In this document: positions 4,171 to 64,000 of the stretch, in pieces
Layout of the letters: the number at the start of each line of letters is the position of its first letter
Numbering within the stretch: the stretch's first letter is position 1
Source: Streptomyces roseifaciens
Lineage (GTDB): Bacteria; Actinomycetota; Actinomycetes; Streptomycetales; Streptomycetaceae
Direction: 5' to 3'
NCBI RefSeq assembly: GCF_001445655.1
Contig: NZ_LNBE01000006.1
Location: 1 to 64,000, forward strand
DNA length: 64,000 bases
Notes under the pieces: generated by a model
What the model was told of the DNA's origin: nothing
The model's database searches: none
The model's input: the letters and a program-made list of their open reading frames with translations, nothing else
Program-made: the position numbers and the translations under genes

Positions 4171-4583
4171 GCCTGCTCCTGTCCCGTGCCGGCGCCGGTG
4201 TTCTGCAGCCGCACCTGGCCGCGGGCGAGGGGCTGTCCGTCGGAGACGGTGACCACCCAGATCTGCTGCGTACGGCCCTGGTGCACGGCTTCGGCGACGA
4301 CCTCGGCCCGGCCCTCGGTCCGCGAGCGCAGCAGGTCGGTGGAGACGTGCACGGCCATGGCGTGCCGGCCGGGGCCGGCCGCCGCCGACGCCCCGAAGGA
4401 GGCCGCGCTCTCGACGGCGGTGGTGTAGACGCCGCCGTTGACGATGCCCCACGGGGTGTGGTGGTCCGGTCCGAGGTCGATGTGGCCGCGGACGCGGGTG
4501 GGGCTCACCTCGGTGACGACCAGCCCCGCCGCCGCGACGAACGCGCTCTCGGCCGGCCGGGGGTCAGCGGAAGGCCTGGACAC
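4167..4583 (-). CDS. PaaI-type hotdog-fold thioesterase, copy 2
   Basis: 138 residues, clearly paralogous to the neighbouring copy (shared layout HHxPWGxVxGGVxxT and RGQxRLQNxG), but the HGG of copy 1 is NGG here (TPWGIVNGGVYTTAVE). In this family the first position of that motif helps shape the active site, so the pair may form a heteromer or have different substrates; that is inference. The GTG start lies inside the 3' end of the acyl-CoA dehydrogenase gene (20-bp overlap). Confidence 0.85.
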   Translation of the reverse strand: MSRPSADPRPAESAFVAAAGLVVTEVSPTRVRGHIDLGPDHHTPWGIVNGGVYTTAVESAASFGASAAAGPGRHAMAVHVSTDLLRSRTEGRAEVVAEAVHQGRTQQIWVVTVSDGQPLARGQVRLQNTGAGTGQEQA

Positions 4584-33804: not shown

Positions 33805-33850
33805 ACTCCTTCAGATGCCGCTCGAGGATCACTCGAGCGGCACTCGAAGG
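33805..33850 (-). promoter_or_regulatory. SARP-type promoter of korA: three TCGAG heptamers
   Basis: On the coding (minus) strand the heptamers TCGAGTG, TCGAGTG and TCGAGCG follow each other every 11 bp. Eight bases later comes AGGAGT in the -10 position; this hexamer is the weakest of the set. The predicted start of transcription is about 45 nt before the korA ATG. The same array reads TCGAGGA, TCGAGCG, TCGAAGG on the other strand, where no gene begins. Confidence 0.7.
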
Positions 33851-37020: not shown

Positions 37021-37025
37021 GCCCG

Positions 37026-37068
37026 TCGAGCCGCCGTCGAGCAGGGTTCGAGGCCCGGTTCCAACGAT
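37026..37068 (+). promoter_or_regulatory. SARP-type promoter of glycosyltransferase, leaderless
   Basis: TCGAGCC, TCGAGCA and TCGAGGC start at 37,026, 37,037 and 37,048; an 8-bp spacer leads to AACGAT at 37,063-37,068. The ATG begins 6 bp after the -10, so transcription would start at or next to the A of ATG and the message would have no leader. No ribosome site precedes the ATG, which agrees. Confidence 0.82.
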
Positions 37069-45782: not shown

Positions 45783-46595
45783 TCAGATGCCCGCGGTCAC
45801 CAGGCGGCGCTGCTGCGCGGGCACCTTGTCCGACGGGTTGAGCACGTCCAGCTGCAGCCGCTGCAGCTCGGGGGAGGGCTCGAGGCCCAGCTCGTCATTG
45901 AGGATCCGGCGCAGGCTCTGGTACGCCTGCAGGGCCTCGGCGCGCCGCCCGGAGTGGTTGAGGGCGGAGATCAGCTGGCCGTGGAACCACTCGTTGAGCG
46001 GGTAGTCGTTGACCAGCGCGCGCAGCAGCGGGATGGACTCGCGCTGCCGGCCGAGCTGGAGCTCCGCCTCGATGCGCAGCTCCAGGGCCCGGATGCGCAG
46101 CTCGTTGAGGTGCACGATGCGGCCGGTGAGGACGTCGCCCGCGGGGATGTTGGAGAGCGCGGGACCCCGCCAGAGGGCCAGCGCCTGCTCCAGGCGCTGG
46201 ACCGCGGCCTCGGGCCTGCCGTTCTCCAGCGCCGTCTTCCCCTGCAGCACGAGGCGTTCGAAGATCTTGATGTCGACCTCGTGGTCCTCCACGCGGATGA
46301 GGTAGCCGGGCGGCTGGGTGATCAGCAGGGCCCGCTCGGCGGGCACCAGCCGCTCGGCTATGAACATCTTGCGCGCGTGGTAGATGTACGTCTGCAACGT
46401 GGTCAGGGCGCTGCGCGGCGGGGATTCGCCCCAGAGCTCCTGGATCAGCGATTCCGAGGTGACGATCTCGTTGGGCCGGGTCAGGAGCAGGGCCAGCGTC
46501 TGGCAGACCTTCGGCGTGCTGGGCAGGTGTGGTGGCCGTCCGTCTCCGGTGACGATCTCGAACGGGCCGATGAGGTTGAATCGCACTGCACACAC
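45783..46595 (-). CDS. SARP-family pathway activator
   Basis: 270 residues, the length of ActII-ORF4 and DnrI. N-terminal OmpR-like winged helix (about 1-95: FNLIGPFEIVTGDG, KVCQTLALLLTRPNEIVTSESLI, TLQTYIYHARKMF) and the bacterial transcriptional activation domain (about 100-255: LRIRALELRIEAELQLGR, NEWFHGQLISALNHSGRRAEALQAYQSLR). It should bind the TCGA heptamer arrays found throughout this cluster. No TTA codon seen. The upstream region holds a palindrome like gamma-butyrolactone-receptor sites rather than SARP heptamers. Confidence 0.95.
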   Translation of the reverse strand: MCAVRFNLIGPFEIVTGDGRPPHLPSTPKVCQTLALLLTRPNEIVTSESLIQELWGESPPRSALTTLQTYIYHARKMFIAERLVPAERALLITQPPGYLIRVEDHEVDIKIFERLVLQGKTALENGRPEAAVQRLEQALALWRGPALSNIPAGDVLTGRIVHLNELRIRALELRIEAELQLGRQRESIPLLRALVNDYPLNEWFHGQLISALNHSGRRAEALQAYQSLRRILNDELGLEPSPELQRLQLDVLNPSDKVPAQQRRLVTAGI

Positions 46596-52108: not shown

Positions 52109-52372
52109 TCAGGCGGCGGCGGCCTCGGTGACCAGGCCGTTGACGAGGTCGATGAGCGCGCGCGGCGTCTCGACCTCGACGAGCTCGTCGTCCGGGACGA
52201 CGACGCCGAACTCCTGCTTGATCTGGGCGGCGCTCTCCATCAGGGCGAGCGAGTCGTAGCCCAGCTCGTCGAAGGGACGGTCGGAGATGTCGCCGGTGAT
52301 GTCGATGCTGTCGTCGACGCCGGCGCACTCGACGAGGATGCGGCGGACGTCGTCAACGGTCATGTGGGCCAT
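52109..52372 (-). CDS. Acyl carrier protein
   Basis: 87 residues with the phosphopantetheine serine (Ser41) in DELGYDSLALME. Carries the growing poly-beta-keto chain. Start at 52,372 (MAHMTVDDV) or 52,363; both leave the domain intact. Lies between the chain-length factor and the aromatase, the classical order. Confidence 0.96.
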   Translation of the reverse strand: MAHMTVDDVRRILVECAGVDDSIDITGDISDRPFDELGYDSLALMESAAQIKQEFGVVVPDDELVEVETPRALIDLVNGLVTEAAAA

Positions 52373-52428
52373 GGGAAGCAGCACTCCAAGTGGGGAAGGG
52401 AAGGGGAGCCGGCAGCCGCCGGCGGGCA

Positions 52429-53661
52429 TTACGCCCGGACGACGACGGCCGAGTTGAAGCCGTGCCGGCCGCGGGCGAGCACCAGGGCGGTGCGGACCGC
52501 CTGGTCGCGGGGCGCGCCCTGGACCAGGTCGAGGCCGTAGTCCTCGGGCACCGGGGCGCCCGTGGGGGTCGGCGGGATGACGCCGTCGCGGATCGACAGC
52601 AGCGCCGTCGCGACGTCGAGCGGGCCGCCGCCGGAGTAGAGCCGGCCGGTGAGGGCCTTCGGGGCGGTGACGGGCACCGCTCCGGCGCCGAAGAGGCCGC
52701 TGATGGCCGCGGCCTCCGCCGCGTCCAGCTCGGGCACGCCGGCGCCGTCGGCGAAGACCACGTCGATGTCGCCGGGCGCGAGGCCCGCGTCGGCCAGGGC
52801 GGCCTCCGCGGCACGGCGCAGGGCCGGGGGCCGGCCGGTGCCGGGGGCGGGGTCGAAGGTCGCGGCGTAGCCCGCGAGTTCGCCGTAGACCTGCTGCACG
52901 CCGCGCTCGCGGGCGCTCGCCTCGTCCTCGGCGACGAGGATGGCGCCGCCCTCGCCGGGCACGTAGCCCGAGGCGTCGGCGCTGAAGGGCAGGTAGGCGC
53001 GGGCGGGGTCGGTGGCGGTGGTGACGCGGCCGCCGGCCAGCTGGGAGACGTAGCCCCACGGGTCGAGGGCGGAGTCGACGCCGCCGGCCACGACGAGCGG
53101 GGTGCCGCGGCGGATCGTGCGGCGGGCGTGGCCGAGCGCGTCCAGGCCGCCGGCCTGCTCGCCGACGAGGGCGGCGCTCGGTCCGCGCAGCTTGTGGCGG
53201 ATGGAGATCTGGCCGGTGTTGACCGCGTAGAACCACGCGAAGGACTCGTAGACGCTGACGAAGTCCGGGCCCTTGTTCCACAGCTTGTCGAACTCGCGGT
53301 GGGTGAAGTCGAAGCCGCCCAGCGCGTTGGAGGTGACGACGCCCATGTCGTAGTCCGGCAGGGTGTCGGGGGAGACGTCGGCGTCGGTGAGGGCCCAGTC
53401 GGCGGCGACGAGCGCGAGCCGCGTCGAGGGGTCGGTCTGCGGGAGCAGCCGGCTGTTGAGGTGCTCGGCCGCGTCGAAGTCGTCGATCTGGCCGGCGAGG
53501 GAGGCCGCGTAGCGGGAGGCGTCGAAGCGGGTGACGGGGCCGATGCCGGTGTGGCCCGCGAGCACCGCCTTCCAGAAGGCCTCGGTGCCGAGGCCGTTGG
53601 GGGCGGTGACGCCGATCCCGGTGATCACGGTCCGCCCGTTGAGGCCGTCCTTGCTGGTCAT
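52429..53661 (-). CDS. Ketosynthase chain-length factor (KS-beta)
   Basis: 410 residues. The active-site cysteine is Gln169 (ALVGEQAGG), the mark of chain-length factors, which decarboxylate malonyl-ACP and set chain length. [21 protein letters not shown] at the gate region looks like the octaketide (actinorhodin) class; this is a soft inference. ATG overlaps the KS-alpha stop by 4 bp. A 928-residue frame covering this gene and beyond is not real. Confidence 0.97.
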
Positions 53662-54926
53662 GCCTTCACTCCTTCCGGGGCGCGCAGGATCATCGCGCTC
53701 TGGAAACCGCCGAAGCCGCTGCCGACGGTCAGGACGGAGTCCACCCGCTGCTCGCGCGCGGTCAGCGGGACGTAGTCGAGGTCGCACTCGGGGTCGGGCG
53801 TGTGCAGGTTGGCCGTCGGCGGTACGACGTTGTGCTTGATGGCCAGGGCGCAGGCCGCGATCTCGATGGAGCCGATGGCGCCCAGGGAGTGGCCGACCAT
53901 CGACTTGATGGAGCTGACCGGCACGTCGTAGGCGTGCTGCCCGAGTGCGATCTTGAACGCAGCCGTCTCGTGGCGGTCGTTCTGCTTGGTGCCGGAGCCG
54001 TGCGCGTTGACGTAGTCGACGACGGTCGGGTCGACGCGGGACTCGTCGAGCGCCGCGCGGATGGCCTCCGCCATCTCCCGGCCGTCCTTCTTCAGACCGG
54101 TCATGTGGTACGCGTTGCAGCGGGTGGCGTAGCCGGTGACCTCGGCGTAGATCTGTGCGCCGCGGGCCTTGGCGGCCTCGTACTCCTCCAGGACGAACAT
54201 GGCGCTGCCCTCGGCGAGGACGAAGCCGTTGCGGGAGGCGTCGAACGGCCGGGAGGCGTGCTCGGGGTCGTCGTTGCGCGTGGTGGTGGCCTTGATCGCG
54301 TCGAAGCAGGCCAGCACGATCGGGGAGATCGGGGTGTCCGACGCACCGGCGATCATCACGTCGGCGGAGCCCTCGCGGATCAGCTGGACGCCGTAGCCCA
54401 CGGCGTCGAGGCCGGAGGTGCAGCCGTCCGAGACCATGGTCACGGGGCCCTCGGCGCCGGCCGCCCAGGCGACCTCGGCGGGCATGACGCCCGGGCTGAG
54501 GTAGTCGAACATGTGCGGCGACAGGTAGTCGGGGTCGACGAGCCACTCGCGGCCCTTGTCGGCCATGACGAGGTACTCGTTCTCCAGGCTGGTGGCGGAG
54601 GCGACGGCGCTGCCGAGGCTCACGCCCACGCGGTGCGGGTCCACGCCGGCGAACTCCAGGCCGCTGTCGGCCACGGCCTCCCGGGTGCAGGCGACGGCGA
54701 ACTGGGTCGCCCGGTCCATCCTGCGGATCTCCCGGGGGGAGAAGCCCTCGGCCTCGGGGAAGAAGTCGGCCTCGGCCGCCACCTGGGACCGGAACGCAGC
54801 CGCGTCGAAGAACGAGATCCGCCGGGTGGCGGTGCGGCCCGCGGTGAGCAGGTCCCAGAACTCCTTGGTGCCGGAGCCGCCCGGGGCGCGGACGCCGATA
54901 CCGGTGATCACCACTCGTCGGGTCAT
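53658..54926 (-). CDS. Ketosynthase alpha subunit (KS-alpha)
   Basis: 422 residues. Catalytic Cys169 in [13 protein letters not shown], histidines in [11 protein letters not shown] and [11 protein letters not shown]. With KS-beta and ACP it forms the minimal type II polyketide synthase. First gene of the operon that runs to the phosphopantetheinyl transferase. Transcribed from a SARP promoter about 110 bp upstream. Confidence 0.97.
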
Positions 54927-55035: not shown

Positions 55036-55067
55036 ACGGTGCGTCTCCGGCCTCGAACACCACTCGA
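55036..55067 (-). promoter_or_regulatory. SARP-type promoter of the minimal PKS operon
   Basis: Minus-strand heptamers TCGAGTG and TCGAGGC 11 bp apart, 8-bp spacer, -10 CACCGT. The leader would be about 100 nt and holds two more TCGA tetramers (54,946; 54,958) off the 11-bp register. Confidence 0.78.
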
Positions 55068-55089
55068 AGACGGATGGGGTACCTCCACA

Positions 55090-55315: not shown

Positions 55316-56608
55316 ATGGAAGCCAGATCCGTGCAACTCAGCCCTGTGTCCACCACTCCGTCCAGCACTCCGACCAGCACCTCGACCAGCACCCTGACCG
55401 CCGGGGAACCCCCCTTCGGGGAACCGTCCCCCGCCGGCCCCTGGGACGTGGAACCGGAGCTCTTCTCGTCGCTCACGCGCAACGACCAGCGCAGGATGGC
55501 GGAGCAGTACGTACGCGGCCTGCTGGAGGCGGAGGGCCGCAAGACCCTGCGCAACGTCGCGGAACAGATCGGCGGGAAGGCGCTCCAGCAGAGCGTCCAC
55601 CACTTCATCACCGCCTCGTCCTGGAACTGGGCCCCGGTGCGGCGGGCGCTCGCGCGCCGCGCGGAGGAGGAGGTGCGCCCCCAGGCGTGGGTGGTCAACT
55701 CCACCGTCATCCCCAAGGCGGGGGTGCACTCGGTCGGCGTCGACCAGCAGTTCCTCCCCCACCTGGGCCAGACGGTCAACGGCCAGCGGGCGTTCAGCGT
55801 CTGGAGCGCCTCCGAGCGGGTCAGCGTGCCCTTCAACTGGAGCCTGGTGCTGTCCAGGAGCTGGCTGGAGGACCCGGCCCGGCGCAGCCGCGCCCACATA
55901 CCCGACGCCAGCCGCGCCATCTCCCTGGAGGAGCACGCCGGCGCCGTGGCCCTGGAGGCCGCCGACTCCTGGGGGCTGCGCAGGCGCCCCGTCGTCGTGG
56001 ACGTGGAGGGGCTCGACGCGGGGGCGACCGTGCGGCGCTTCGCGCGGGCGGGCCTCCCGCTGATCATGCGCATCGACGGCACGACCCCGCTGCGCGTCGA
56101 CGGCACCCTGCTGCAGGGCTACAGCGACCGGGAGGTGCCCGCGCAGAACCTGATCGGCTCGATGAAGCGGATGCGCCGGCAGGTCGAGTGGTCCGACACC
56201 TCGGGGACGGGCTCGTACCGCGGGGTGGTGAGCGCGATCCCGGTGATCCTGTCGTGCCCCGCGCCCGCGGGCGGGCCCGGCGGCAGCCACCACCGGCCCA
56301 TGCTGCTGATGGGCGACTGGGGCTCCTCCGACCGGTGGCCGTCGCGGATGTGGCTCACCGACTCGCGGCGGCTGCCGCTGGTCACCCTGCTGCGCCTGAC
56401 CCGGCTCACGGGCGTCGTCCAGCGCGACTTCGCGGAGATCTCCGAGCACACCGGGATACGGGACTTCGCGGGCCGCTCGTTCCGAGGCTGGCACCGCCAC
56501 GTCACCCTGGCCTCGGTCGCCCACCTCATCGCCGTGCGTGCGGGGGCGCGGCGCCTCCCGGCGCAGCGGCGGCGCGCGGCGGGGTCCGTCGCGCCGCTGT
56601 GTGCGTGA
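55316..56608 (+). CDS. IS701-family transposase-like protein with degenerate DDE triad
   Basis: 430 residues. A Ser/Thr/Pro-rich N-terminus (about 1-45) precedes an IS701/DDE_5-like body: NVAEQIGGKALQQSVHHFITASSWNWAPVRRALA, then WVVNSTVIPKAGVHSVGVDQQF, where active elements have DDTGFPKKG, so the first Asp is Asn128/Ser129. Asp229 in VVVDVEG and the Glu in RDFAEISEHTG are kept, with FRGWHRHVTL at the end. Frame intact, no terminal inverted repeats noticed, GGGGAGAG upstream of ATG 55,316. Probably a captured regulator or DNA-binding protein rather than a mobile element. Confidence 0.75.
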   Translation: MEARSVQLSPVSTTPSSTPTSTSTSTLTAGEPPFGEPSPAGPWDVEPELFSSLTRNDQRRMAEQYVRGLLEAEGRKTLRNVAEQIGGKALQQSVHHFITASSWNWAPVRRALARRAEEEVRPQAWVVNSTVIPKAGVHSVGVDQQFLPHLGQTVNGQRAFSVWSASERVSVPFNWSLVLSRSWLEDPARRSRAHIPDASRAISLEEHAGAVALEAADSWGLRRRPVVVDVEGLDAGATVRRFARAGLPLIMRIDGTTPLRVDGTLLQGYSDREVPAQNLIGSMKRMRRQVEWSDTSGTGSYRGVVSAIPVILSCPAPAGGPGGSHHRPMLLMGDWGSSDRWPSRMWLTDSRRLPLVTLLRLTRLTGVVQRDFAEISEHTGIRDFAGRSFRGWHRHVTLASVAHLIAVRAGARRLPAQRRRAAGSVAPLCA

Positions 56609-57167: not shown

Positions 57168-57201
57168 GCCGTGGCGGAACCGCCGCGGCGGAACCCGGGC
57201 T

Positions 57202-57244
57202 TCGACCCCCTTTCGACCGGCCGTCGAGGCCACGGCGGCACCCT
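57202..57244 (+). promoter_or_regulatory. SARP-type promoter of ketoreductase
   Basis: TCGACCC (57,202), TCGACCG (57,213), TCGAGGC (57,224), 8-bp spacer, -10 CACCCT at 57,239-57,244. Leader of about 50 nt. Confidence 0.8.
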
Positions 57245-58217: not shown

Positions 58218-59234
58218 GTGACGGAGCGAGCGGTGACCGAGCAAGCGGTGACGGAACAAGCAGTGACGGATTCACCCGTAGGGACACGCATACGGACGGC
58301 GGCCGTGATCGGCGTGGGCACCATCGGCCTCGGCTGGGCCGCGCTGTTCGCCTCCGCCGGGCTGACCGTCCGGATCAACAGCCGGCGGCCTGACGCCGAG
58401 ACGCACGTCAGGAATGCGTTCGAGCTGTACGCGGCCTCGCTGCCGGGCGGCCCCGCCGACCCGGCCGAGCTCGCCGCCCGCCTGGAGTTCGAACCCGACG
58501 TGGCCCGCGCCGTCGAGGGCGCCGACGTCGTCCAGGAGAACGCCCCCGAGAACCTGGCCCTCAAGCAGGACCTCTTCGCCCGGATCGGCGCCGCCGCCCC
58601 CGCCCACGCACTGCTCCTGTCCTCCACCTCCACGCTGCTCCCCGACGACCTGGGAGCGGGGATGGCCGACCCGGGCAGGCTGCTGGTCGCCCACCCCTTC
58701 AACCCGCCGCACATCGTGCCGCTGGTCGAGATCGTCACGGGCGAACGGACCGACCCGCAGGCCGTCGAGGAGACCGTGGCCTTCTACCGCGGCCTCGGCA
58801 AGACCCCCGTCGTGCTGCGCCGGGCCGTCCCCGGCTTCGTCGCCAACCGGCTGCAGTCCGCGCTGCTGCGCGAGAGCATCCACCTGGTCCGCGAGGGCGT
58901 CGTCTCCGTCGCCGAGCTCGACGAGATCGTCACTTCCTCGATCGGCGGCCGCTGGGCGGCGGTCGGCCCGTTCCGCGCCTTCCACCTCGGCGGCGGCCCC
59001 GGGGGCCTGCGCCACTGGTTCGAGCACCTCGGCGCCGGCCTGGAGAAGAGCTGGCAGGGGCTCGGCAACCCGCCGGTCGACGAGGAGACCGTCGCCCGGA
59101 TCCTCGCCCAGGCGGAGGAGGCGTTCGGCGGCCGCACCTACGAGGAGCTCGCGGCCGAGCGCGACGCGAAGCAGACGCGGGTGATCGCGGCTGCGGGCAC
59201 CGACGCCGACGCCGGTCCGGCGGAACGGGCGTAG
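58218..59234 (+). CDS. 3-hydroxyacyl-CoA dehydrogenase-like reductase (ActVI-ORF1-like), copy 1
   Basis: 338 residues. NAD-binding VIGVGTIGLGWAALF (about residue 25), VVQENAPENLALKQDLF, SSTSTLLPDDL, and HPFNPPHIVPLVE holding the catalytic histidine. In actinorhodin, ActVI-ORF1 reduces the C-3 ketone and sets pyran stereochemistry; same role proposed. The N-terminus is coded by four near-identical 15-bp units, each with an in-frame GTG (58,218; 58,233; 58,248; 58,263), giving AVTE repeats; I take the first because GGAG lies 7 bp upstream. Confidence 0.92.
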   Translation: MTERAVTEQAVTEQAVTDSPVGTRIRTAAVIGVGTIGLGWAALFASAGLTVRINSRRPDAETHVRNAFELYAASLPGGPADPAELAARLEFEPDVARAVEGADVVQENAPENLALKQDLFARIGAAAPAHALLLSSTSTLLPDDLGAGMADPGRLLVAHPFNPPHIVPLVEIVTGERTDPQAVEETVAFYRGLGKTPVVLRRAVPGFVANRLQSALLRESIHLVREGVVSVAELDEIVTSSIGGRWAAVGPFRAFHLGGGPGGLRHWFEHLGAGLEKSWQGLGNPPVDEETVARILAQAEEAFGGRTYEELAAERDAKQTRVIAAAGTDADAGPAERA

Positions 59235-59270
59235 CCGAGCGCGCCCATTCTGCGGACGGTCGGGTTCCGC

Positions 59271-59335
59271 TCGAAGAACGCTCGAAGTCCGCTCGAAGCC
59301 GGCTCGAAGAACGCTCGAAAGCCGCGCGGAATATC
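59271..59335 (+). promoter_or_regulatory. Five-copy SARP heptamer array upstream of enoyl reductase
   Basis: TCGAAG-type heptamers start at 59,271, 59,282, 59,293, 59,304 and 59,315, each exactly 11 bp apart; the last is TCGAAAG. Seven to eight bases further lies GAATAT/AATATC as -10. This is the longest array in the window; other promoters have two or three copies. Confidence 0.82.
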
Positions 59336-59345
59336 CGTTCGCCCG

Positions 59346-59376
59346 TTGACCTCAACTCTGGTTGAGGTTGAAAGAT
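59346..59376 (+). promoter_or_regulatory. SoxR-type promoter of enoyl reductase
   Basis: A -35 TTGACC and -10 AAAGAT are 19 bp apart, the long spacer of MerR-family promoters, and the spacer contains the perfect dyad ACCTCAAC-TCTG-GTTGAGGT. CCTCAA..TTGAGG is the SoxR core as I know it. Transcription would start near 59,383, downstream of the SARP start. Confidence 0.75.
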
Positions 59377-59472: not shown

Positions 59473-60384
59473 ATGAAGGCGGCAGTTTTCCAGGAGTTCG
59501 GCGGCCCCGAGGTGCTCAAGGTCGAGGAGGTCGAGACCCCCCGTCCCGGCACCGGCGAGATCCGCGTGCGCGTCAAGGCCGCCGGTGTGCAGGCGTACGA
59601 CACGGCCGTCCGCTCCGGCTGGAACCCGCCCGGCATGACCATCTCCTTCCCGCAGACCATCGGCAACGACTTCGCGGGCGTCGTCGACGAGCTCGGCGAG
59701 GGCGTCACCGAGTTCGCCGTCGGCGACGAGGTCCTGGGCTGGGCCCTGCTCTCCTGCTCCGCCGAGTACCTGGTCGTCTCCACCGAGCAGGTCGTCGCCA
59801 AGCCGTCGGGCATGCCGTGGGAGGTGGCCGGCGCGTTCTCCGCCTCGGCGCAGACCGCCCACACCGCGCTCCAGGCGCTGGAGATCGGCGCGGGCGACAC
59901 CCTGCTCGTCCACGCGGCCGCCGGCGGCGTCGGCACGATCGCCGTGCAGCTGGCCCAGGTCCTGGGCGCCACGGCCATCGGCACCGCGAGCGAGCGCAAC
60001 CACGAGTACCTGCGCTCGCTGGGCGCCACCCCCGTCACCTACGGCGAGGGCCTCGCCGACCGCGTCCGCGAGCTCGCCCCCGGCGGCGTCACCGCGGCCC
60101 TCGACGGCATCGGCGGCGACGCCCTCGACGTCTCCGTCGAGCTGGTGAAGGACAAGAACCGCATCGCCACCCTCGTCGACTTCGGCCGCGTCGAGGAGCT
60201 GGGCGTCCGCGCCGTCTTCAGCCAGCGGGCCAAGGAGCGCCTCGCCGGGCTCACCGCCCTCTACGCCGAGGGCAAGCTGCGCGTGGAGGTCTCCAAGACC
60301 TTCCCGCTGGAGCAGGCCGCGGACGCGCACCGCGAGATGGAGACCGGCCACGTGCGCGGAAAGATCGTCATCACCGTCGGCTGA
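59473..60384 (+). CDS. Quinone oxidoreductase-like enoyl reductase (MDR family, ActVI-ORF2-like)
   Basis: 303 residues, zinc-free medium-chain reductase. N-terminal GroES-like domain (MKAAVFQEFGGPEVLKVEEV, GNDFAGVVDELGEGV) and NADPH motif HAAAGGVGTIAVQLAQVLGA. ActVI-ORF2 reduces the enoyl bond of the pyran ring in actinorhodin; the same is likely here, and detoxifying quinone reduction is an alternative suggested by its SoxR-type promoter. Start ATG 59,473; the longer frame translates the decamer repeats. Confidence 0.92.
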   Translation: MKAAVFQEFGGPEVLKVEEVETPRPGTGEIRVRVKAAGVQAYDTAVRSGWNPPGMTISFPQTIGNDFAGVVDELGEGVTEFAVGDEVLGWALLSCSAEYLVVSTEQVVAKPSGMPWEVAGAFSASAQTAHTALQALEIGAGDTLLVHAAAGGVGTIAVQLAQVLGATAIGTASERNHEYLRSLGATPVTYGEGLADRVRELAPGGVTAALDGIGGDALDVSVELVKDKNRIATLVDFGRVEELGVRAVFSQRAKERLAGLTALYAEGKLRVEVSKTFPLEQAADAHREMETGHVRGKIVITVG

Positions 60385-60419: not shown

Positions 60420-61073
60420 ATGAAGATCGAGATCTACTCCGACGTCCTGTGCCCGTGGTGCTACATCGGCAAGCGCCGGATAGCCGCCGCCCTGGACGGC
60501 TTCGCCCACCGCGACGAGCTGGAGATCGTCTGGCGCAGCTTCGAGCTCGCCCCGGGCGAGGGCAGCGAGCCCGGCCCGACGGCGGCCGAGGCCATGGCCG
60601 AGTGGACGGCCCCGGACGTGCTGCCGGGCCGGATCGAACTGATCAAGTCCCAGGGCCGGCAGGAGGGTCTGGAGCTCAACCTCCACAAGTCCCGCCCCGT
60701 GGGCACCTTCGACGCGCACCGGCTGACCCACTTCGCGGCCGAGCGCGGCCTGCTGGAGCCGGTCATGGAGCGGCTGTTCCACGCGTACCACACCGAGGCC
60801 CTCAACGTCGGGGACCGCGAGGTGCTGGTGCGGCTGGCGGGCGAGGCCGGGCTGGACGAGGACGAGGCCCGCGAGGTGCTGGAGAGCGACCGCTACGCGG
60901 ACGCCGTGGTCGCCGACGGGAACCGCGCCCGCCAGTTCAACGTGACGGGCGTGCCGTCGGTCGTCATCGACGGCCGCATGCCGGTCTCCGGCGTGCAGGC
61001 GCCCGAGAAGCTGCTCACCTTCATCGAGCGCGCGTGGGAGCGGGCGCAGAAGGAGCCGGCGGCGTCCGTCTGA
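60420..61073 (+). CDS. DsbA-family (FrnE-like) dithiol oxidoreductase
   Basis: 217 residues, thioredoxin-like DsbA fold with CPWC at 11-14 (SDVLCPWCYIGKRRI), helical insert, and the cis-proline in VTGVPSVVIDG. FrnE-type proteins occur in the frenolicin cluster and others of pyranonaphthoquinone type, where the reaction is unproven; glutathione- or mycothiol-dependent isomerase activity is the family expectation. GAGGAG precedes the ATG. No signal peptide, so cytosolic. The 36-bp gap before it contains a 12-bp tandem repeat (GAACGATCGACC twice). Confidence 0.92.
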   Translation: MKIEIYSDVLCPWCYIGKRRIAAALDGFAHRDELEIVWRSFELAPGEGSEPGPTAAEAMAEWTAPDVLPGRIELIKSQGRQEGLELNLHKSRPVGTFDAHRLTHFAAERGLLEPVMERLFHAYHTEALNVGDREVLVRLAGEAGLDEDEAREVLESDRYADAVVADGNRARQFNVTGVPSVVIDGRMPVSGVQAPEKLLTFIERAWERAQKEPAASV

Positions 61074-61284: not shown

Positions 61285-61926
61285 GTGCAGCACAAGTGGA
61301 AGCTGACGGGCGGACTTGCGGCCTCACTGGGGCTTGCTCTGACGGGGATCATGTCCTCGGCCGGAACGGCGAGTGCCGACACCGCGACGAAGACGCTCGA
61401 TTACACCTGCCAGACCCGGTACGACGGCAACTGGATCCCGGTTCCGTACGCGCGTGACTTCACGACCACGGCGCCGGCCAAGGTCGCCCCGGGTCAGACC
61501 TTCAAGGTCACCTTCGACTCCGCCCCGATCAAGGCCGTGGCGGACTTCAACAAGCGCCTCAACACCGTGAACATCGCGTACAAGGTGCCGGCCAACGCCA
61601 AGGTCGTCGGCTACAAGCTGACCGGCGGCAGCAACCTCGGCTCCGCGAAGCAGTGGGTGGAGCGCAACGGCACCAACTTCGCCGTCAAGTCCGACGGCGA
61701 GTGGGCCGGCGGCGTCGAGTTCGACTTCCCGAACCTGGAGGTCACGCTCAAGGCCCCGACCACCAACGGCGCCATCCTCACCACCGGCGCGGGCGGCTCC
61801 AGCTTCAGCGACCCGGCCTTCTCCTGGAACCGGCTGCAGACCCAGCTGAACACCTGGGACCCGTTCCAGTGCTACGCCGACCCGGCCAAGCCGGTGACGT
61901 TCTCGACCACCCAGGTCGGTTACTGA
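61285..61926 (+). CDS. Secreted protein of unknown function
   Basis: 213 residues from GTG (GAGAGGAAA upstream). Clear signal peptide: VQHKWKLTGGLAASLGLALTGIMSSAGTASA-type sequence with cleavage after ASA near residue 31. The mature part is beta-rich (LDYTCQTRYDGNWIPVPYARDF, TFKVTFDSAPI, VNIAYKVPANAKVVGYKLTGGSN) with two cysteines, one near the N-terminus and one near the C-terminus, which may form a disulphide. No enzyme motif recognised. Stands alone with its own strong terminator, 211 bp after the FrnE-like gene. Confidence 0.8.
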   Translation: MQHKWKLTGGLAASLGLALTGIMSSAGTASADTATKTLDYTCQTRYDGNWIPVPYARDFTTTAPAKVAPGQTFKVTFDSAPIKAVADFNKRLNTVNIAYKVPANAKVVGYKLTGGSNLGSAKQWVERNGTNFAVKSDGEWAGGVEFDFPNLEVTLKAPTTNGAILTTGAGGSSFSDPAFSWNRLQTQLNTWDPFQCYADPAKPVTFSTTQVGY

Positions 61927-62025: not shown

Positions 62026-63759
62026 GTGATGAGCAGCGCAGTACAGCCTCCCGAGGACGCCGTACGGCCTTCCGGGGACCGGACCGTCGTCGCCGTCATC
62101 GGCGCGGGCACCATCGGGCTCGGCTGGATCGCCCTCTTCCTGGACCGGGGGCTCCGGGTCCGGGTCAACAGCAGACGCCCCGACGCCGAGCGGGTGGTCA
62201 GGGAGGGCCTCGCGGTCTTCGCCCCCACCCTGCCGGGCGGGCCCGCCGACGTCGACATGCTCATGGAGCACGTGGAGTTCGAGCCCGACATGGCCCGCGC
62301 CGTCCGCGGCGCGGCGGTCGTGCAGGAGAACGCACCCGACGACCTCGCCCTCAAGCAGGAGCTCTTCCGTACGGTCGAGCAGGCCGCTCCCGCGGAAGCC
62401 CTCCTGCTGTCCTCCACGTCCAAGCTGCTGCCCGACGACATGGGCGCGCTGATGGCCGAGCCGGGACGCGTCGTCGTGGGACACCCCTTCAACCCGCCGC
62501 ACGTCGTCCCCCTGGTCGAGGTCGTCGGCGGCCGGCACACCCCCGCCGGGCTGATCGACGAGGTCACGGCGTTCTACCGGGCGGTGGGCAAGGTCCCCGT
62601 CGTCGTCCGCAAGCCCGTACCGCGCTTCGTCGCCAACCGCCTGCAGTCCGCGCTGCTGAGGGAGAGCATCCACCTCGTGCAGGAGGGCGTCGTCACGATG
62701 GCCGAACTCGACGCCGTCGTCACGCAGTCGATCGGCCTGCGCTGGGCCGTCGTGGGGCCGTTCGAGGCCTTCCACCTGGGCGGCGGCGAGGGCGGCCTGC
62801 GCCGCTGGCTGGGCGGCACGGCACCCGGCCTGGAGCGCGCCTGGCGCGCCACCGCCGTCCCGGCCCTGACGCCGGACGCCGTCGAGGCGCTCGGCGCCGA
62901 GGCGGACCGGACCTTCGGCACGGACCACGCCGCGCTATCGCGCGCCCGTGACGAGAAGCAGAACGCCGTGCTCGACGCGCTCGCGCGGATCGACGCCCGG
63001 CACCAGTCACACAGGGAAGACGAGAACATGGAACCCCAGCCCCAGTCCCAGCCTCAGCAGACCCAGCCGGCCCAGCAGCCCGAACCCCACGTCGTGGACT
63101 TCTGGTTCGACCCGCTGTGTCCCTTCGCCTGGATCGCCTCCCGGTGGATCACCGAGGTGGCCGAGAAGGCCCCGGTGACCGTCCGCTGGCACGCGATGAG
63201 CCTGGCCCTGCTCAACAGCGGCAAGGACATGCCCGAGGCGCGGCGCACGATGCTCGGCCTCTACTGGGGCCCGGTCCGGGTCCTGGCCGCCGCCCGCGCC
63301 GCCCACGGCGACGCCGTCACCGGCCCGCTCTACACGGCGATGGGCTCCCGCTTCCACGCCCCCGGCGGCATCTTCGAGCCGGTCCGCACCGCCCCGGCGG
63401 AGGAGTTCCGCGCGGCGATGATCGAGGGGCTGAGCAGGACGCGCCCGGACATCGAGGCGGCCCTGGCCGAGACCGGGCTGCCCGCCGGTCTGATCGACGC
63501 GATGGACGACGACCGCTGGGACGACGACCTGCGCGCCTCGCACGACCGGGTGCCCTCGGACGGCCTCGGCCAGGAGCTGATCGGCGTCCCGACGATCTCC
63601 GTGGACGGCGGCGCGGGCCAGTTCGGCCCGGTCCTGACGGAGATACCGCGCGGCGAGCGGGCGGTACGGCTCTGGGAGGCCTTCCGGACCCTGGCCGGCG
63701 ACCCGGCGTTCTTCGAACTGAAGCAGAGCACGGGGCGCACCGAGCCCCTGACCCACTGA
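62026..63759 (+). CDS. Fusion: ActVI-ORF1-like reductase plus DsbA-fold domain
   Basis: 577 residues. Residues about 20-325 repeat the first 3-hydroxyacyl-CoA-dehydrogenase-like protein (VIGAGTIGLGWIALF, HPFNPPHVVPLVE). A Gln/Pro-rich linker (about 335-350) joins a DsbA-fold domain (about 353-577) resembling mycobacterial Rv2466c: VDFWFDPLCPFAWIASRWITEV and GVPTISVDG. The CxxC is CPFA (Cys365, Ala368), so the resolving cysteine is lost. An internal ATG at 63,028 behind GGGAAGACGAGAAC could yield the DsbA part alone. GTG 62,026 or the adjacent ATG is the start. No SARP heptamers seen upstream. Confidence 0.88.
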   Translation: MMSSAVQPPEDAVRPSGDRTVVAVIGAGTIGLGWIALFLDRGLRVRVNSRRPDAERVVREGLAVFAPTLPGGPADVDMLMEHVEFEPDMARAVRGAAVVQENAPDDLALKQELFRTVEQAAPAEALLLSSTSKLLPDDMGALMAEPGRVVVGHPFNPPHVVPLVEVVGGRHTPAGLIDEVTAFYRAVGKVPVVVRKPVPRFVANRLQSALLRESIHLVQEGVVTMAELDAVVTQSIGLRWAVVGPFEAFHLGGGEGGLRRWLGGTAPGLERAWRATAVPALTPDAVEALGAEADRTFGTDHAALSRARDEKQNAVLDALARIDARHQSHREDENMEPQPQSQPQQTQPAQQPEPHVVDFWFDPLCPFAWIASRWITEVAEKAPVTVRWHAMSLALLNSGKDMPEARRTMLGLYWGPVRVLAAARAAHGDAVTGPLYTAMGSRFHAPGGIFEPVRTAPAEEFRAAMIEGLSRTRPDIEAALAETGLPAGLIDAMDDDRWDDDLRASHDRVPSDGLGQELIGVPTISVDGGAGQFGPVLTEIPRGERAVRLWEAFRTLAGDPAFFELKQSTGRTEPLTH

Positions 63760-63812: not shown

Positions 63813-64000
63813 ATGCGTGTGATCCGTATCCGTGAGTTCGGGGGCCCGGAGGTCATGCGGGTCGAGGAGACCCCCGTGCCGCAGCCGGGTCCGGGCGAGG
63901 TGCTGATCGCCGCCGAGGCGATCAGCGTGGGCTTCGCGCAGACGCAGATGCGGCGCAACATCTTCCCCGCGCCGATGTGGCGGCCCGAGTTCCCGATCGT
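63813..64000 (+). CDS. Second MDR-family enoyl/quinone reductase, 5' part cut by window edge
   Basis: Open from ATG 63,813 (CTGGAGGAATCTCAG upstream) to the window end: 62 residues beginning MRVIRIREFGGPEVMRVEE, the N-terminal GroES-like domain of quinone-oxidoreductase-type enzymes. It follows the fusion gene by 53 bp, so reductase/DsbA/enoyl-reductase functions appear twice in this part of the cluster. Compare ActVI-ORF4, the second enoyl reductase of actinorhodin. Confidence 0.88.
   Translation, partial: MRVIRIREFGGPEVMRVEETPVPQPGPGEVLIAAEAISVGFAQTQMRRNIFPAPMWRPEFPI

Follow-up and report, generated by a model that had tools for sequence, protein, structure and literature searches.

The locus and its gene cluster

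The window analysed here is a 64,000-nucleotide stretch of Streptomyces roseifaciens DNA, in which a quinone reductase gene, QOR1, is preceded by a SARP-type heptamer array and a SoxR-type promoter. Genes were called by our own script and the translations were scanned for protein families, which gave the following features.

45783-46586, minus strand: small SARP-type regulator gene (BTAD PF03704 and Trans_reg_C)
52109-54926, minus strand: minimal PKS, with ACP at 52109-52372 (by position and tblastn only), CLF at 52429-53661 and KS at 53658-54926
58233-59234, plus strand: 3-hydroxyacyl dehydrogenase (ActVI-ORF1 type, PF02737), directly upstream of the array
59269-59319, plus strand: SARP-type array of five exact GCTCGAA heptamers with an 11-bp period (direct reading and comparison with S. 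hiroshimensis)
59329-59334, plus strand: GAATAT, putative -10 of a SARP-driven promoter P1 (weak, by position only)
59346-59376, plus strand: SoxR-type promoter P2, with TTGACC, a 19-bp spacer holding the dyad ACCTCAAC-TCTG-GTTGAGGT, and AAAGAT
59473-60384, plus strand: QOR1, quinone/enoyl-reductase-type MDR protein of the ActVI-ORF4-position type (Pfam ADH_N, ADH_zinc_N)
60420-61073, plus strand: FrnE-like DsbA-family thiol oxidoreductase, 35 bp behind QOR1 (PF01323; PDB FrnE 5cnw, 170 bits)
61285-61926, plus strand: secreted-looking protein, a relative of which sits between QOR2 and QOR1 in actinorhodin-type runs
63813-64000, plus strand: start of QOR2, ActVI-ORF2-position type (gene end at 64799 of the contig)

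The PKS and ring genes of the cluster comprise KS, CLF, an aromatase/cyclase, a short-chain ketoreductase, a metallo-beta-lactamase-fold protein and two 3-hydroxyacyl dehydrogenases, and they are accompanied by genes for acyl-CoA-dehydrogenase-type proteins, a flavin reductase, a phosphopantetheinyl transferase, the small SARP, deoxyaminosugar formation and a glycosyltransferase. Some relatives of the CLF are named as act minimal PKS chain-length factor. The act-type gene set (minimal PKS, ketoreductase, aromatase, second-ring cyclase, actVI- and actVA-type genes) is present, with labels that we in part presume, and the cluster appears to be a type II PKS cluster of the benzoisochromanequinone-like kind, its putative product class. 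A DDE-type transposase gene (55316-56608) lies between the minimal PKS and the ketoreductase, and S. hiroshimensis has one too. Just past the window end (C6:64866-73826) an FMN reductase gene is followed by a methionine-cycle cassette of co-directional genes for SAM synthetase, a PfkB kinase, B12 methionine synthase, MTHFR and SAH hydrolase.

Eight other genomes (L148, L151-L155, L157 and L158) carry the run SnoaL / 3HAD-QOR2-secreted protein-QOR1, followed by ACAD-ABM. We take this to be the actVI-actVA order, and it is on this order that QOR1 is typed as occupying the ActVI-ORF4 position and QOR2 the ActVI-ORF2 position. The secreted-looking protein presumably holds the ActVI-ORF3 position, and homologs of the 3-hydroxyacyl dehydrogenase, QOR2, the secreted protein and QOR1 are common to this cluster and to the actinorhodin actVI run, as we take its order to be. 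QOR1 is 55% identical to the gene in the ActVI-ORF4 position of an actinorhodin-type run, and its best PDB match is 3tqh (164 bits). QOR1 was also considered as an ActVI-ORF2-type enoyl reductase, which was ruled out because QOR2 fits better, being 59% identical to the gene in that position and matching PDB 9vxk with 295 bits against 130 bits for QOR1. At 62029-63759 a single open frame encodes a fusion of two parts, a 3-hydroxyacyl dehydrogenase of the ActVI-ORF1 type and a mycothiol-dependent nitroreductase domain resembling Rv2466c, and this fused frame of 577 residues is also found in S. hiroshimensis.

The SoxR-type promoter and the soxboxes of the genome

Read directly from the sequence, TTGACC occupies 59346-59351 and AAAGAT 59371-59376, and the dyad arms ACCTCAAC (59349-59356) and GTTGAGGT (59361-59368) flank the TCTG centre. 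P2 thus has the form of a SoxR promoter, a CCTCAA-N6-TTGAGG dyad inside a 19-bp spacer with the -10 at the matching spacing, and the perfect SoxR-type promoter described in the sequence-only reading is present with the spacer as claimed; the distance from the putative SARP -10 to TTGACC, given there as 12 bp, measures 11 bp (59334 to 59346). With up to 3 mismatches the P2 pattern matches once in the 64-kb window and in none of 100 shuffles, its soxbox score is 17/17 where the best in 20 simulated windows was 11-13/17, and the exact dyad occurs at a single place in the whole 8.64-Mb genome. S. hiroshimensis keeps 29 of the 31 P2 bases, both changes falling in the dyad centre.

When the genome was searched with the SoxR profile TIGR01950, one of 19 MerR-like matches passed the SoxR cut-off (233 bits). 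The encoded protein carries CIGCGCLSLENC, which corresponds to CX2CXCX5C, the motif of the cluster-binding cysteines of SoxR (PMC4146615). Allowing up to 3 mismatches, a search for TTGACCTCAA-N6-TTGAGGT found 11 forward matches and 8 reverse ones, at 14 distinct sites, against 0 for the reversed control. At 12 of these 14 soxbox-like sites, P2 included, xAxxxT follows at the 19-bp spacer (background 2%); the two left out, L023 and L030, have 2 and 3 mismatches and no xAxxxT at that spacing. The other 11 soxboxes precede genes for two MFS pumps, an ABC exporter, an FMN reductase, a quinone reductase, an NmrA-type protein, an imine-reductase-like protein, two SnoaL-like proteins, an erythromycin-esterase-like protein and an ABM protein. 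The search for soxR and further boxes proposed in the sequence-only reading has yielded one soxR and 11 additional soxboxes with a -10 at 19-bp spacing, a coherent set ahead of pumps and of enzymes of redox or tailoring type.

In S. coelicolor, SoxR binds such sites and its targets, which depend on actinorhodin, are SCO7008, SCO1909, SCO1178, SCO4266, SCO2478 and SCO0320ext; two of the targets resemble tailoring enzymes, and SCO4266 is similar to ActVI-ORF2 (37%) and ActVI-ORF4 (34%) (PMC4146615). The kinds of gene behind the 11 soxboxes, as judged from their predicted products, match that regulon in kind: in both there is a soxbox promoter before a quinone-reductase-type gene, and pumps and redox enzymes are members. 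Here, in contrast, the target is the ActVI-ORF4-type gene itself, which belongs to a PKS cluster and has a SARP array as its neighbour, and the SCO4266-like protein of the same genome (L018) is only 32% identical to QOR1. To our knowledge, judging from gene numbers and the position of the act cluster, none of the six S. coelicolor targets lies in that cluster.

A MerR-family protein other than SoxR could in principle use the P2 site, given that the genome holds 18 weaker MerR-like matches and that a 19-bp spacing is common to MerR promoters. Against this, the same box precedes the gene kinds that SoxR controls in S. coelicolor, a tblastn search with SoxR of the fetched loci, which cover the clusters in part, found no SoxR-like gene except at soxR's own locus, and the first 100 kb of the contig contain no MerR-like match; we regard such a regulator as very improbable and SoxR control of QOR1 as very likely. 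In the granaticin cluster of S. vietnamensis, disruption of a soxR-like gene, gra-orf20, is reported to have raised the yield threefold (PMC8733708). There, as here, SoxR-type control appears tied to a benzoisochromanequinone cluster; in that case the regulator sits inside the cluster and has a negative effect on yield, whereas here the fetched cluster stretches are without a SoxR-like gene and it is the target gene that bears the site.

Two of the other boxes deserve separate mention. About 16 kb from P2, a soxbox at C6:75942, with one mismatch, precedes an ABM monooxygenase gene (L019, C6:75533-75964). This gene was considered as a possible part of the core genome; its protein was found in none of 30 other relatives at E<=1e-30, and ActVA-ORF6-like relatives are 45-46% identical. 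At C3:2177091 (L012) a perfect soxbox is followed, 15 bp past the box, by the ATG of the erythromycin-esterase-like gene, possibly giving a leaderless message.

The heptamer array and the putative promoter P1

The GCTCGAA copies begin at 59269, 59280, 59291, 59302 and 59313, and 26 bp separate the array end (59319) from P2 (59346). Five SARP heptamers upstream of the reductase had been described from the sequence as the longest array of the window. Five exact copies with an 11-bp period are indeed found at that place, starting 2 bp ahead of the 59271 given, and a scan of the window and the next 36 kb agrees that no array is longer, the four others having 2-3 copies each, three of them mostly inexact. 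Of 200 first-order Markov 64-kb windows, 198 had no perfect CTCGAA/TTCGAG array longer than 1 copy and the other 2 reached 2 copies; when any 6-mer with an 11-bp period was allowed, every one of 30 simulated windows peaked at 2 copies, against 5 here. Neither P2 nor the array is a chance expectation. The shorter, mostly inexact CTCGAA-like arrays with 11-bp spacing, at about 33820-33848, 37025-37052, 55051-55068 and 57201-57228, lie near other operons and are possibly SARP sites.

In the parts of the sources available, SARP-dependent promoters such as those of ActII-ORF4 have two or three direct heptamers at 11 bp, the last repeat standing about 8 bp before the -10 (PMC10972967, PMC4393881). 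The present locus resembles these descriptions in its direct heptameric repeats at 11 bp, in the small SARP gene of the cluster and, tentatively, in the distance of the last repeat from the putative -10, and it differs from them in having five copies and in the SoxR-type promoter that follows immediately. The array has retained its register in S. hiroshimensis, where 32 of 35 heptamer bases are identical but only 11 of 20 spacer bases (Fisher p=0.005, from a comparison of two species only). The SARP reading of the array thus draws support from its geometry, from the SARP-type gene in the cluster and from heptamers that are better kept than their spacers.

GAATAT lies 9 bp past the last GCTCGAA, or 8 bp if the heptamer is read as CTCGAAA, and the start of the P1 transcript is predicted near 59341. 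This -10 is weak, its S. hiroshimensis counterpart is GAAGTG, and there are relatives that have the soxbox without the array, so that the heptamers might not form a separate promoter, being either idle or an aid to the polymerase at P2; the conservation of heptamer register and bases over spacers in the two species speaks against this, and we consider it unlikely.

The array was found only in the S. roseifaciens window and in S. hiroshimensis, and no array precedes the box at L134, L135, L136 or L139. Among 392 genus genomes, a pair of CTCGAA spaced 11 bp apart with a soxbox 10-40 bp behind it occurs in the S. roseifaciens genome only, a count that does not prove uniqueness because the exact pattern misses variants such as that of S. 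hiroshimensis. None of 60 others qualified as near relatives at E<=1e-130, and the array accordingly rests on two species. It would seem to be a local addition, and the SoxR input older and wider.

The box in relatives and a candidate control circuit

QOR1 was found at E<=1e-90 in 25 of the 392 genus genomes. A soxbox scoring 14-17/17 lies within 130 bp of the QOR1 start in 8 of these 25 copies, S. roseifaciens included, and the remaining 17 score 8-10. Among 73 named loci, a 15-17/17 box precedes an intact QOR1 in seven: S. hiroshimensis (L034), Salinispora (L035), Streptomyces sp. I05A-00742 (L036), Nonomuraea (L041, L043 and L079) and Kitasatospora (L044). L056, with 10/12 on a short core, is without the box. 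For a quick tree, 73 sequences were extracted from 98 loci (73 named and 25 genus), three short ones were skipped (L058, L095 and L096), and 51 of the 70 left, with at least 45% identity, were used. The box is present in 15 of the 51 rows, in addition to which the skipped loci have a 14/17 box (L058), a similar degenerate box by eye (L095) and a 17/17 box before a fragmentary QOR1 (L096). The box-bearing rows are clustered, the label requiring 4 changes against a shuffled mean of 13.2, with none of 500 shuffles as low, and the site is thus conserved before orthologous genes.

The clade of the window has seven rows (SH-aLRT 98), among them the cluster members L034 and L108 and, without PKS-type neighbours, L035, L036, L122 and L109. 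The box stands at QOR1 in six of the seven, and in L109 a 15/17 box precedes an FrnE-like gene that comes before QOR1 in the same direction. In a second clade of five rows (SH-aLRT 99) all five have the box and three lie in PKS clusters. Box-bearing cluster copies therefore fall in two clades, each also with members outside PKS clusters, and we read this as box-bearing QOR1 genes having entered clusters at least twice. Early presence of the box followed by losses, as in the actinorhodin type, would also be compatible with the tree, which was rooted at its midpoint and leaves several inner forks unsettled.

Type II PKS-type neighbours accompany 19 QOR1 copies, as assessed by visual inspection of tblastn results; the gene context was surveyed at 38 of the 73 named loci, and L049 and L146 were assigned to neither group. 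Six have the box at QOR1, and their gene orders are of four kinds: one shared by the window and L034, one in L134 (a degenerate 14/17 box), one in L135, and one in L136 and L139, which are alike. The claim that the SoxR-type site lies within a biosynthetic cluster is borne out, and the site recurs before QOR1 in other clusters of this kind. The 13 without a box at QOR1 are L144, L045, L046, L048, L141 and all eight actinorhodin-type runs, in which QOR1 is internal and follows the previous gene after about 50 bp. In L141 a 17/17 soxbox precedes a gene 41% related to the presumed thiol-oxidoreductase half of 62029-63759, and about 80 bp upstream lies a pair of TCGAG at 11 bp that may serve a divergent glycosyltransferase gene.

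The canonical soxbox promoter, the soxR gene, the further soxboxes, the recurrence before QOR1 in other clusters and the heptamer array, all read from sequence, place two operator types in tandem, with a matching regulator gene for each in the genome. On this basis QOR1 and the FrnE-like gene probably form a SoxR-controlled operon inside a benzoisochromanequinone-like cluster, with an added SARP-type control site. The cluster SARP would switch the operon on with the pathway, via P1 or through P2, and oxidised SoxR would raise it from P2 once a redox-active quinone product or intermediate accumulates; QOR1 would then serve to reduce quinones or enones, and its FrnE-like partner to handle thiol damage. 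Counted from the predicted P1 start, the dyad would span roughly +9 to +28 of the transcript, so that SoxR may also restrain P1. The tandem sites suggest that the cell probably raises the level of the reductase as its own quinone product builds up, product sensing being the conjectural part.

In such a circuit QOR1 may serve synthesis or self-protection. The sequence-only reading proposed a product- or intermediate-driven feed-forward loop on a tailoring step; QOR1 would then work on an intermediate of the pathway, with SoxR adjusting the level of the enzyme to the flux. The ActVI-ORF4-type identity of QOR1, its position in the cluster and the conservation of the soxbox in six clusters agree with this, but relatives outside PKS clusters bear the same soxbox, and we hold it only tentatively. 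Stand-alone QOR1 genes in Salinispora, Nonomuraea, Kitasatospora and Streptomyces are likewise preceded by a soxbox, in some cases beside an FrnE-like gene, which makes self-protection at least as plausible. QOR1 and the FrnE-like protein could then be a pair captured for detoxification and repair that takes no part in making the product and is induced through SoxR by quinone stress, with QOR2, which suits the ActVI-ORF2 position, as the pathway enoyl reductase. Such a pair is favoured by Salinispora (L035), with the order soxbox-QOR1-FrnE, and by L138, where a 15/17 soxbox stands ahead of FrnE-QOR1, both in fetched stretches free of PKS-type neighbours, whereas the retention of QOR1 without a soxbox in 8/8 actinorhodin-type runs speaks for a pathway role there; we see protection alone as a serious possibility, short of an even chance.

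Going beyond the SoxR-controlled operon itself, clusters may more than once have recruited a SoxR-regulon reductase together with its promoter, reading their own product via the redox sensor of the host, with the close SARP array starting the operon and the product handing over to a SoxR that covers the P1 start; this extension is speculative. If true, the SoxR regulon would be a source of tailoring reductases for quinone clusters. A conserved SoxR site on an in-cluster ActVI-ORF4-type gene would link the SoxR answer to the cell's own quinone antibiotic with targets of the tailoring type, in a small product-sensing circuit accessible with standard Streptomyces tools, and soxboxes in clusters might serve to flag redox-active products. 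Both SoxR targets and SARP promoters are already known, and their combination inside a cluster appears to be the new element, for which we claim no priority; a literature search, mostly outside subscription journals, gave among the matches listed no publication describing a soxbox-bearing gene in a benzoisochromanequinone cluster.

Two further loci carry additional boxes. In Salinispora vitiensis (L035) a second 17/17 soxbox, at 4442-4464, precedes a 488-residue reading frame that lies immediately before the soxbox-QOR1-FrnE operon. In genome G228 (L140) QOR1 is without a box of its own, but three soxboxes occur in the stretch around it, in the vicinity of genes for an MFS protein, a SAM synthetase and an FMN reductase.
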